NCBI GenBank assembly: GCA_017460955.1
Contig: JAFTZY010000029.1
Coordinates: forward strand, 1-32,492
Direction: 5' to 3'
Source: Oscillospiraceae bacterium
Lineage (GTDB): Bacteria > Bacillota > Clostridia > Oscillospirales > Ruminococcaceae
DNA length: 32,492 bases
Shown: piece by piece, positions 2,064-27,504 of the stretch
Numbering within the stretch: the stretch's first letter is position 1
Layout: each line of letters opens with the position of its first letter
The notes under the pieces: model-generated
Seen by the model: only the letters and a program-made list of their open reading frames with translations
Databases searched by the model: none
What the model was told of the DNA's origin: nothing
Position numbers and translations under genes: made by a program

Positions 2064-3722
2064 ATGACGAGCACACCACTGATCATCGTGATCGTCATAC
2101 TTGCTGTGGCGCTCATTGCATCCATCGTCGTCGCGTACATCCTGGTCAGGAGTACACGGGACAAGGCGTTTGAGGAGGGCGTGGAGCACCGCCGTCAGGA
2201 GGCGGAAGCCGTCCTCGGATCGGCTGAGAAGGAGGCACAGGAGAAGATCCTCGATGCCGAACGCCGTGTGGAGGAAGCCAAGGTGAAGGTCCAGGAGGCC
2301 GAACGCACCTTGCAGGATGCCGAGAAGGCAGCGGACAACAAGAAGAAGGAAGCGCTGGTGGAGGCAAAGGACGAGATCTACAAGCTCCGGCAGGATGCGG
2401 AGAAGGAGATCCGTGACCGCCGCGGAGAGATCTCCAAGCAGGAGCGCCGGATCCACCAGAAGGAAGAAACGCTTGACAAGAAGATCGACAGCCTTGAGCG
2501 CAAGGAGGAGGCTGTGCAGCAGAAGCTGCAGGAGGCCGATGCCCTGCGTGAGAAGGCGGAGGCCCTCAAGCAGGAGCAGCTCGATGCCCTCGAGCGCATC
2601 TCCGGCCTGACCCGTGAGCAGGCCAAGGAATACATTCTCCAGACCCTCGAGGATGATCTGGTACACGACAAGGCGGTGAAGGTATCCGCCTACGAGCAGC
2701 AGATCAAGGAGGACTGTGAGGAGAAGGCAAGAAGCTATATCTCTCTGGCGATCGCCAAGTGCGCCGCCGATCAGGTCTCCGAGGCAGCCGTGTCCGTGGT
2801 GGCACTGCCCAATGACGAAATGAAGGGCCGGATCATCGGCCGTGAGGGCCGCAACATCCGCACCCTCGAAACGCTCACCGGTGTGGACCTCATCATCGAC
2901 GATACCCCCGAGGCCATCACGCTCTCGTGCTTTGACCAGGTACGCCGTGAGATCGCCCGGATCGCACTCGAGCGCCTGATCGCGGACGGCCGGATCCATC
3001 CGAGCCGCATCGAGGAAATGGTCGAGAAGGCCAAGCGCGAGGTGGAGCACAAGATCAAGCAGGAGGGCGAACGCGCCGTCCTGGAGACGAATGTACACGG
3101 CCTGAACCACGAGCTGGTCAAGCTCCTGGGACGGCTGCGGTTCCGTACCAGCTACCGGCAGAACGTGCTGACCCATTCGATCGAGGTCGCACAGCTGTGC
3201 GGCGTCCTGGCAGCGGAGCTGGGCGTGGATGTGAACCTTGCCAAGCGTGCAGGCCTTCTGCATGACATCGGTAAGGCACTGACCTCCGAGGTGGAGGGCT
3301 CCCATGTCCAGATCGGCGTGGATGTCTGCCGCAAGTGCCATGAGAATCCGGAGGTGCTCCATGCCATTGAGGCACATCACAACGATGTGGAGCCGAGAAC
3401 GGCCATTGCCTGCATCGTACAGGCAGCCGACGCGATCTCTGCGGCAAGACCGGCAGCCAGAAGCGAGAATTACGACAGCTACATCAAGCGTCTCGAAAAG
3501 CTCGAGGAGATCTGCACCTCCTACAAGGGCGTGGAGAAGTGCTATGCCGTACAGGCAGGCCGTGAGATCCGCGTGATGGTACAGCCCGAGGTCATCAGCG
3601 ATGAAAAGATGGTGCTCGTGGCCCGCCAGATCGCACAGCAGATCGAGGACGAGATGGAATATCCCGGACAGATCAAGGTCAATCTCATCCGGGAGAGCCG
3701 GACGGTGGATTACGCCAAGTGA
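2064..3722 (+). CDS. rny: Ribonuclease Y
   Basis: A 552-residue membrane-anchored endoribonuclease that starts mRNA decay in Firmicutes and is a core member of the degradosome-like network. Residues 4-27 form one transmembrane helix. Residues about 30-200 are a highly charged coiled coil rich in Glu, Lys and Ala. A KH RNA-binding domain follows at about 250-285 with [15 protein letters not shown], then an HD phosphohydrolase domain with the metal-binding pair H400-D401 in [12 protein letters not shown]. The C-terminus (ESRTVDYAK) is typical of the family, and the length is slightly over the usual 515-520, mostly in the coiled coil. The start follows an AAAGGTAGGT ribosome binding region. Transcription probably begins at 1728 or at an unseen closer promoter, and ends at the hairpin at 3742-3772. 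Confidence 0.97.
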
Positions 3723-24943: not shown

Positions 24944-25104
24944 GACTTACTCGGAAACCGGAAAAGTGCCGGATTGCGCAGTATATTTTGTCCTGTGCAA
25001 AGTGACTTGCCCGCAGTGATACTTTGTGTATTGCAAGGGCAAGTCGCAAAGCACAGGGCAAAAGAGACCAGCAAGACGGTGCTTTGGAGGGTTCCGAGGA
25101 AGTC
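24944..25104 (+). repeat. 161-bp long-hairpin intercistronic element, copy A
   Basis: The boundaries are near-perfect inverted ends, GACTTACTCGGAA and its complement TTCCGAGGAAGTC (16 bp with two mismatches). Further stems continue inward: 24963-24971 with 25077-25085, 24987-24998 with 25051-25062, 25003-25012 with 25037-25046, and a terminal stem-loop at 25013-25034. A conserved internal loop AAAG/CAAA (24999-25002/25047-25050) interrupts it. Copy B at 27344-27504 on the minus strand is the same length and aligns without gaps (about 125 of 161 identical by eye). It starts 12 bp after a stop codon and ends 10 bp before the next ribosome binding site. No coding frame is supported. It could be a MITE-like repeat, an RNA processing site or a cis-regulatory RNA. 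Confidence 0.88.
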
Positions 25105-25126
25105 CAAACATGTGGAGGGGAAGGCA

Positions 25127-25945
25127 ATGGGTACTCCTTTGGTGTCTGTGATCATGGGTGTATATAATGCGGATGAGCATCTGCTCGATGCCTCCATCCG
25201 GTCCCTGCTGACACAGACTTACGAGAATCTGGAGATCATCATCTGTGATGATGCATCGACCAACGGCACTTCGGAATGGCTTGCCAAGTTTGCGATGATG
25301 GACGAGCGCATCCGACTTTTGCACAATCCGACCAATCAGCACCTGGCCGGGACGCTCAATCATTGCATCCGCGAGGCAAGGGGGGAATATCTTGCCCGGC
25401 AGGATGCGGATGATATATCCGAGCCCGACCGGATCGAAAAACAGGTGGCGTATTTACAGGAGCACGAGGATATCGACTTTGTCGGCAGCAACTGCCGCAT
25501 GTTCAACCCGCAGAGCGGTGTGCTGGGGATCCGGCTGATGCCGGGACGTCCGGATAAATCGGATTTCCTGTTCAATTCGCCCTACATACACGGCTCACTC
25601 ATGTTCCGCAGCTCCTGTCTGAATCCGGACTGCTGCTATCTGGTGTCCAAATGGACGGACCGCACGGAGGATTATGAGCTGTTCATGCGCATGTACAGCA
25701 TGGGCTACCAGGGGGCCAATATGCAGGAGCCGCTGTATAATTACCACTACGGCGCACAGCAGCGGCAGATCGCCATGCATTACCGCATTGATGAAATGGT
25801 GCTGCGCTACCGGGGGTTCCAGGCACTCGGACTGCTCCCGAAGGGCCTGCCGTATGTCGTCAAGCCCGTGGTGCTCGGCATCATGCCGGGGAGACTGGTG
25901 AGTCTTTTGCGGGAGAAGCGCATGAAGATCGCTGTTGCAAGCTGA
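25127..25945 (+). CDS. Family 2 glycosyltransferase
   Basis: A 272-residue GT-A enzyme, cytoplasmic or peripheral at the inner membrane face, that transfers a sugar from a nucleotide-sugar donor. VSVIMGVYNADEHL (about 6-19) opens the nucleotide-binding fold, IIICDDASTNGT follows, and the metal-binding DxD is D93-A-D95 in LARQDADDISEPDRI. An acidic WTDRTEDYELFMR segment provides the likely catalytic-base region. The start is ATG 25127, with GGAGGGG upstream; longer frames run back through the 161-bp element and have no ribosome binding site. Third gene after the pyrophosphorylase and COG5610 genes and probably in their operon, separated by the hairpin element. Ends at a terminator. Confidence 0.92.
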   Translation: MGTPLVSVIMGVYNADEHLLDASIRSLLTQTYENLEIIICDDASTNGTSEWLAKFAMMDERIRLLHNPTNQHLAGTLNHCIREARGEYLARQDADDISEPDRIEKQVAYLQEHEDIDFVGSNCRMFNPQSGVLGIRLMPGRPDKSDFLFNSPYIHGSLMFRSSCLNPDCCYLVSKWTDRTEDYELFMRMYSMGYQGANMQEPLYNYHYGAQQRQIAMHYRIDEMVLRYRGFQALGLLPKGLPYVVKPVVLGIMPGRLVSLLREKRMKIAVAS

Positions 25946-26559: not shown

Positions 26560-27255
26560 TCACACACCATACTTGGCAGTTGCTACCGGAACGCCCGGGC
26601 CCATCGTAGAGGTGACGGTGCAGGACTTGAGGTAGGTACCCTTGGCTGCGGAGGGCTTGGCCTTCACAATGGCCTCAAGCAGGGTGGAGAGGTTCTGGTC
26701 GAGCTTCTCAGCACCGAAGGAAGCCTTGCCGATCGGGCAGTGGATGATGTTGGTCTTGTCGAGACGGTACTCGATCTTACCAGCCTTAGCCTCGGTAACA
26801 GCCTTGGCAACATCCGGGGTAACCGTGCCGGCCTTCGGGTTCGGCATCAGACCGCGGGGACCGAGGACACGGCCCAGACGGCCGACCAGACCCATCATGT
26901 CGGGGGATGCAACGACTACGTCGAAGTCCATCCAGTTTTCCTTCATGATCTTGTCAACCAGATCCTGGCCGCCGACATAATCGGCACCTGCTGCCTGTGC
27001 AGCCTCATACTTGTCTTCCTTGCAGAATACGCAGACTCTGACATTCTTACCGGTACCGTTGGGCAGTACAACTGCGCCTCTTACCTGCTGGTCAGCATGT
27101 CTGGAGTCAACACCCAGACGGATGTGGACCTCAACGGTCTCGTCAAACTTTGCCTTGGCGTTCTTGCATACCAGGTCCAGAGCCTCAGCGGACTCGTAGA
27201 GCTTGGAGCTATCGATTGCCTTACGGCTGTCAACATACTTCTTGCCGTGTTTCAT
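26560..27255 (-). CDS. rplA: Ribosomal protein L1
   Basis: A 231-residue protein of the 50S L1 stalk, which helps release E-site tRNA and often represses its own operon. It has [15 protein letters not shown] at the start, [20 protein letters not shown] in domain II, and the family signature [18 protein letters not shown]. Two in-frame ATGs follow AGGAGG; the second (27255) has a 9-bp spacing and is preferred to the first (27261, 3 bp). The gap to rplK is 274 bp, far larger than usual, and contains the 161-bp hairpin element. The operon ends directly after this gene, so rplJ and rplL are not here. Confidence 0.98.
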
Positions 27256-27343
27256 TATCATTATCCTCCTAATTAGTGGTAATACCGGTGTGCTATCGTT
27301 TTTCGCACATCCGATTAGCGGAATCTTCCTCCCACTTTCAGCT

Positions 27344-27504
27344 GACTTCCCCGGATCCTTCCAAAGCACCATCCTGCCGGTCTATTTTGCGCCTGGCTTT
27401 GCGGCGTGTCCTTGCAATACACCGAGTATTGCTGCGCCCACGACGCTTTGCCATGCACAAACTATCCTGCGCATGATGGCACTTCTCCGGCTTCCAAGTA
27501 AGTC
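27344..27504 (-). repeat. 161-bp long-hairpin intercistronic element, copy B
   Basis: On the minus strand this starts GACTTACTTGGAAGCC and ends GGATCCGGGGAAGTC, the same ends and length as copy A at 24944-25104. Differences cluster in paired arms and several keep pairing: window positions 27456/27391 are G-C (C-G in A), 27453/27394 T-A (G-C in A), 27452/27395 G-C (T-A in A), 27441/27406 G-C (T-A in A), 27477/27371 A-T (G-C in A). The internal loop AAAG/CAAA is unchanged. It lies 25 bp after the rplK stop and 88 bp before the rplA start, transcribed in the sense of the operon. Confidence 0.88.

Follow-up and report, generated by a model that had tools for sequence, protein, structure and literature searches.

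Bacterial MITEs, short non-autonomous transposons, are usually viewed as passive pairs of transposon ends. REP and REPIN sequences, which go with RAYT, have a hairpin preceded by a tetranucleotide and a strand-specific structure, in which they resemble the element described below; the latter differs in having terminal inverted repeats (TIRs), target duplications and insertion sequences (IS) of the DDE type. IS5-family IS (NCBIfam NF033580 and NF033581) have ends that match three kinds of MITE bearing the structured core described here, but they carry transposase genes, and no core was found in the four loci searched (L164, L253, L255 and L257).

Bacterial MITEs often form long stem-loops, according to the parts of two reviews drawn on here (PMC10969869, PMC2229807), and the former describes transcripts of Correia and ERIC elements as processed by RNases. 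A parallel is offered by the Correia/NEMIS elements of Neisseria, which are about 107 or 155 bp long and have TIRs and a stem-loop transcript (PMC2229807, PMC10969869); the same parts of these sources mention no core common to several TIR types, whereas here one core occurs under many TIR types across a whole class. RUP of Streptococcus pneumoniae is likewise non-autonomous, and its presumed mover is IS630-Spn1, whose ends it shares (PMC2229807); the IS family is IS630 there and IS5 here, and no shared structured core is mentioned for RUP in the part of the source used. TIMEs are miniature mobile elements, some of them mosaic, as is the case here, yet they derive from the Tn3 family and, in the text consulted, have no conserved structured core. 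Openly licensed PMC papers gave no report of the present element or of a bacterial MITE core with varied ends, which is weak evidence of absence, and the portions of the two MITE reviews (PMC10969869, PMC2229807) held no comparable case. MITEs as such are known already, and a structured core that changes its transposon ends is, to our knowledge, apparently new.

Two copies of a 161-bp hairpin element

The window, by which we mean the whole stretch of 32,492 nucleotides analysed, holds two full copies of the element, A and B. Their parts are given below, with bit scores from R1, a covariance model of the core built from 44 sequences that finds matches without requiring the tip motif.

24944..25104, plus strand: copy A, full 161-bp element, sense strand plus
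24944..24959, plus strand: left TIR of copy A, GACTTACTCGGAAACC
24977..25076, plus strand: structured core of copy A, about 100 nt (R1, 97.5 bits; copy A is in the R1 alignment)
25018..25038, plus strand: conserved tip stem-loop of copy A, RATACTNNNTGTATTGCAAGG
25089..25104, plus strand: right TIR of copy A
27344..27504, minus strand: copy B, full 161-bp element, sense strand minus, inserted between rplK and the rplA leader
27344..27359, minus strand: right (3') TIR of copy B
27372..27471, minus strand: structured core of copy B, about 100 nt (R1, 81.6 bits; copy B is outside the R1 alignment)
27410..27430, minus strand: conserved tip stem-loop of copy B
27489..27504, minus strand: left (5') TIR of copy B

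The preliminary description, made from the letters of the window, proves exact on the anatomy of the two copies. Each is 161 bp long, the two align without gaps at 125 of 161 identical positions, and each folds end to end into a single hairpin, with RNA folds of -91.7 kcal/mol for A and -72.9 kcal/mol for B; the complementary strands fold worse (-69.2 and -54.8, respectively). Pairs that changed on both sides and yet remained paired had been put at five or more and number exactly five, next to six one-sided differences, while pairs open in one copy amount to 8 of 58 by the fold of A and 4 of 56 by the fold of B. Copy A begins, as described, 12 bp after the upstream stop (24931), in a gap between a gene without a Pfam match and a gene for a family 2 glycosyltransferase, and copy B begins 25 bp after the rplK stop (27530) and is followed by the gene for ribosomal protein L1; in each case, the next gene lies on the same strand. 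With coding room for at most 53 codons, the element is short and holds no transposase gene, as a MITE does. Two instances of the tip motif lie in the window and none in 100 shuffles, a test that is circular on its own because the motif was drawn from the copies themselves; four further full copies elsewhere in the own genome, with E values from 1e-37 to 2e-23, place the repeat beyond chance.

The frames of the glycosyltransferase (24974-25945) and of rplA (26560-27372) both extend upstream into the elements, so that automatic starts may fall inside copy A (TTG at 24974) and copy B (ATG at 27372); the true starts are likely 25127 and 27258, respectively. Neither a terminator nor a promoter was found at copy A, and two weak promoter-like sites and one terminator-like site lie near copy B, outside the element. 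No Rfam family matched at its gathering score in the window, in 20 loci or in 20 further loci (matches listed to E 0.1), in agreement with the initial view that the shape belongs to no named family. E-value searches of Rfam 15 returned sub-gathering matches only, among them microRNA hairpins at the cores and a weak match to L31-Firmicutes inside copy A.

Mobility and insertion sequences with matching ends

A MITE-like element had been one of several candidates put forward at first, and it is borne out by the TIRs, by dispersed copies, by an empty site for copy B and by an IS with the same ends. Specifically, the own genome (2.48 Mb in 84 contigs, 90.8% complete) contains six full copies and several partial ones, and a search of this genome together with 40 relatives gave matches in 7 of the 41, all of them among the 25 genomes of the own genus and none among the 16 of other genera. 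One match (G010) is the tip of a different family only, and the window type, full or partial, is present in 5 of the 40 relatives. A second relative, G016, has 20 matches scored of 45 candidates; many of its contigs end inside the element, and those of its copies that were read resemble one another, a pattern such as a recent burst would give. The empty site was read for copy B only: the rplK-rplA gap, read in 22 relatives of the same genus (L193-L213 and L215), is free of the element in every one, and the rplK search gave no match in G005 and G016. Target duplication in the window family is weak, with ANT in 7 of 26 copies, a value that 26 of 500 shuffles reach. Taken together, the genome comparison shows that the element is a mobile MITE.

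The rplK-rplA gap of the 22 relatives, and positions 27259-27343 of the window, also hold a motif of the type GTGGGAGGA...CCGCTA...ACCAC ahead of rplA, with GTGGCAGGA in L213. We take it to resemble an L1 autoregulatory leader; Rfam gave no match for it in the window. A viral collection yielded two matches to the tip pattern, whose surroundings are unlike the element and which were taken for chance, and copy A had no match among plasmids and phages at E 1e-5.

The end pattern AGACYTNCTCGGRAN led to a 926-bp IS (L164) in the relative G003, which has the same ends as the window element, ATT on both flanks and a pair of overlapping ORFs that match HTH_Tnp_4 and DDE_Tnp_4, placing it in the IS5 family. 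A second kind of IS, of about 850 bp, has GGGCTTGTTTGAAAAATA ends (L255, L257 and L259) with two to three mismatches to the GGCCTTG consensus, and a third, of about 820 bp, has GAACCTGTATTC ends (L253) with one mismatch per side to the end of a core-bearing MITE. The latter two kinds occur together in the genome of Anaerotruncus sp. G3; both are of the IS5 type with DUF4096, and both L253 and L255 fall into the NCBIfam group IS5_3. The transposase match of L253 is interrupted by a stop, so this IS may be disabled. Pairwise BLASTP between the catalytic ORFs of L164, L253 and L255 gave nothing significant (best E 0.05), and the three kinds of end go with clearly different IS5-family transposases.

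The own genome, of which the assembly is incomplete, yielded neither a DDE_Tnp_4 nor a DDE_Tnp_1 transposase, and the burst genome, also incomplete, gave no DDE_Tnp_1 (G016) and no DDE_Tnp_4 (G533, the genome of L060, which is probably the same assembly). An autonomous partner was not found for MITEs with GGGGTTC or GGCAACA ends; TIR pairs about 1-2 kb apart were considered as IS of these kinds and set aside, as the genes inside them look ordinary by eye (L222-L224). The matching ends suggest that IS5-family transposases act on the element in trans.

One structured core under different transposon ends

A scan of genome contigs for RATACTNNNTGTATTGCAAGG returned at least 118 stretches. By record label, the matches listed include one each from Flavobacteriales, Deltaproteobacteria and Tannerellaceae and three from 'uncultured bacterium'; the remaining listed ones are labelled Clostridia, chiefly Ruminococcus, Oscillospiraceae, Angelakisella and Anaerotruncus, and many gut and rumen bacteria are among the core carriers, as are the cultured Ruminococcus flavefaciens FD-1, Anaerotruncus sp. 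G3 and Agathobaculum desmolans. The ends of these loci differ widely. Seven TIR families with 5 to 29 members were sampled, the largest including one chance match, and at least 15 end types can be told apart by eye. Of 149 motif matches, 103 were assigned to a family and 46 were not (contig ends, other ends, chance); the 103 were reduced to 90 elements by removing ten (insertions, truncations, a duplicate, a chance hit and the chimera L047) and then three that were more than 97% identical, while a second chimera, L056, was kept.

What the families share extends beyond the tip. In a cross-family profile search, in which the tip was masked, 24 bases were trimmed from each side and the scores were compared with shuffled controls, the window model placed 9 of 10 GGCCTTG, 5 of 5 GGCGCTG, 3 of 6 GAGCCTG, 1 of 7 GAACCTG, 2 of 20 GGCAACA and none of 19 GGGGTTC elements above all shuffles. 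The GAACCTG model did so for 17 of 19 GGGGTTC elements and none of 26 of the window family, and the GAGCCTG model for 10 of 20 GGCAACA and 16 of 26 window-family elements. GGCAACA is the most weakly linked (10 of 20 by one model, 2 of 20 by another and 0 of 20 by four). As such, the comparison indicates that the families are linked outside the tip and the TIRs, albeit unevenly.

The reach of the core is wider than that of the window family. R1 finds 26 cores in the own genome, among which several further kinds of end occur (two cores at contig ends have equal scores and are perhaps one copy). At E 0.001 it matches 66 of the 197 genomes searched in the order, and it matches 33 of 196 in a sample of the class at 1e-4, with 30 of these outside the order, and 4 of 299 in a sample of the phylum, two of them outside the order; each of the three tallies counts the own genome. 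Outside the order, too, the sequence of the tip and of some loop positions is conserved.

Target duplications come in at least two lengths among the families. With five named elements and short-flanked ones dropped, a 4-bp target duplication flanks 14 of 20 GGCAACA and 13 of 21 GGGGTTC copies (0 of 500 shuffles), and a 3-bp duplication flanks 7 of 8 GAACCTG copies (5 of 500 shuffles) and, as a moderate signal, 5 of 7 GAGCCTG copies (26 of 500); GGCCTTG and GGCGCTG mostly have TA on both sides, so the duplication test is uninformative for them. In addition, L047 and L056 read as chimeras, in which arms of two families are joined at the core. The data show one structured core of about 100 nt under different transposon ends, and a core with so many different ends appears to ride on several transposases.

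Other arrangements were also seen. Next to the tip, three Angelakisella copies (L052, L063 and L132; L090 by length only) contain an additional palindromic insert of about 55 bp, either a nested element or an expansion. The GGCAAYACCGCACAA end occurs, with at most one mismatch, 114 times in the genome of L035 (G523) and 102 times in that of L091 (G525), and its pairs include some that measure 46 bp end to end, too short for a core. L122 has two tandem cores 157 bp apart (about 2280-2550, minus strand), and a genome outside the order (G243, C4 and C9; L262 and L263) has two pairs of inverted cores 20 bp apart. At L269 (about 990-1110), a core that is the sole hit of its genome in the order search lacks recognisable transposon ends and is bordered by a short end repeat alone (TTCCAACG...CGTTGGAA), possibly a fixed or ancestral form. 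The near-identical loci L260 and L261, considered as a single-copy ancestral RNA gene, have transposon-like ends and gave no evidence for it.

Strand-specific selection and its explanations

The proposal that the structure is under selection, first raised from five compensated pairs in two copies, is carried far more strongly by shuffle tests on three alignments. In the window family, 95.1% of cells are paired, 23 of 54 pairs are changed on both sides, and the covariation score is 0.372 against 0.184 after shuffling; in the core set, 17 of 24 pairs are double-changed (0.550 against 0.168); and in 58 cores found by R1 (56 loci, chosen by hand), the count is 23 of 24 (0.684 against 0.184), in an alignment that was fitted to the model structure, so that its pair counts lean towards that structure. 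None of 500 shuffles reaches the double-change counts or covariation scores of any set, and slid controls stay below 0.15; one of the five measures is weaker, as 14 of 500 shuffles reach the further pair types of the window family.

This selection distinguishes the two strands. The sense strand folds better than the antisense strand in 89 of 90 elements and in 55 of the 58 R1-found cores, and the window-family consensus gives -68 against -30 kcal/mol. If the pairing were kept by template switching, or in a double strand or cruciform, equal numbers of G-U and A-C changes would be expected. On terminal branches with an unambiguous parent, however, Watson-Crick pairs changed to G-U 101 times and to A-C 56 times (p=2e-4 in a binomial test that takes the events as independent), a bias of about 2:1 rather than an absolute one. 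G-U leads in all seven families (28:16, 30:17, 12:7, 16:14, 5:1, 4:1 and 6:0), though weakly in GGGGTTC (16:14), and a structure derived from the antisense consensus gives a similar picture (226:115 cells). Such a strand-specific excess argues for selection on a single, RNA-like strand. It is alike for elements lying against the genes on both sides (31:16), along them (35:17) or in mixed or unknown placement (35:23), so that the signal apparently does not come from neighbour read-through; as some terminal changes may predate insertion, this split is suggestive rather than decisive. Statistically, strand-specific structural selection is shown, and it apparently belongs to the element itself. 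The structured strand is probably RNA, which falls short of proof because G-T pairs are tolerated in single-stranded DNA as well.

The available data are compatible with a model, to which we give an even chance of being correct, in which the MITE is moved by an IS5-family transposase and its core is a strand-specific passenger under selection that rides several transposases, probably as RNA. In this model, an IS5-family DDE transposase would recognise the ends and move the MITE in trans, as the genome comparison and the matching IS ends suggest, while the core of about 100 nt would fold single-stranded on one defined strand and, by the statistics above, be selected as such. Equipped with varied ends, the core would ride on several transposases, and recombination between cores of different families would yield new combinations, as the two chimeras suggest. 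The sense strand would most likely be made as RNA, and its conserved internal loops, the tip (CGCAG-NAATAC-loop-GTATTN-CAAGG) and a U-rich/A-rich arm may serve as binding sites for a protein or ribonuclease of the host that is widespread among Clostridia. Such binding would favour the persistence or spread of the element, not the neighbouring operon.

Three other explanations fare less well. Rather unlikely, in our view, is that the structured strand is single-stranded DNA serving transposition or replication, as in attC or in IS200/IS605 and REPIN: a strand-specific structure that disregards gene orientation does fit a transposition intermediate, and a tetranucleotide before the tip hairpin, here GCAG, is a feature of REP/IS200-type ends, but the TIRs, the target duplications and the matching IS indicate DDE transposases, which act on double strands. 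In addition, the elements have no strand preference relative to genes (91:85, see below) and hence probably none relative to replication. We likewise consider it unlikely that the element is an ordinary palindromic MITE whose pairing is kept by fold-back template switching or palindrome-dependent transposition, with a core that reflects ancestry and has no function. Long stem-loops are indeed common in bacterial MITEs (in the review parts cited above, PMC10969869 and PMC2229807), the 44 double changes from one Watson-Crick pair to another on terminal branches could be template switches, and apex-less forms exist (L007, L008 and L163); template switching, however, gives perfect pairs and no preference for G-U on one strand, contrary to both counts above, and sequence conservation at the tip and at some loop positions extends past the order. 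Least probable of the three is a cis-acting mRNA element, like Correia/NEMIS, that would be processed by RNase III or RNase Y, affect stability or regulate the downstream gene, a reading which the sense orientation of both window copies in operon gaps had first suggested and the RNase processing of Correia and ERIC transcripts would parallel (PMC10969869, in the part used), since the flanking genes run 91 along and 85 against the sense strand by home-made gene calls and the strand signal is much the same in either orientation, with the reservation that some terminal changes may predate insertion.

The latter count comes from 101 copies, of which one lies inside a called gene and the other 100 are intergenic by our own calls: both flanks run along the element in 30, against it in 22, and in mixed directions in 12 and 12, with one flank called in 24, figures that precede a correction of the rplA call at copy B made for the 91:85 count. 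Given this balance, the co-directional placing of both window copies is most simply chance.

For the preferred model of a transposase-borne structured passenger, a broader version can be proposed tentatively, and we regard it as more doubtful than the model itself: that the core is a selfish, structured RNA present class-wide in Clostridia, a module of about 100 nt that is bound to no single transposon, gains new terminal repeats time and again, is spread by many different DNA transposases and needs its RNA form, made from its own strand irrespective of the neighbouring genes, for spread or tolerance. The findings also draw attention to repeats that terminate contigs in the assembly of one relative and are entered by gene frames in the window. 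It is the inside of the element, not its ends, that is conserved class-wide, under a strand-specific selection apparently independent of the neighbours, which makes testable the idea of a mobile element built around a non-coding structured RNA that switches transposases. If the broader version is true, the core is comparable to a SINE, in a bacterial form that hijacks DNA transposons instead of a retrotransposon.
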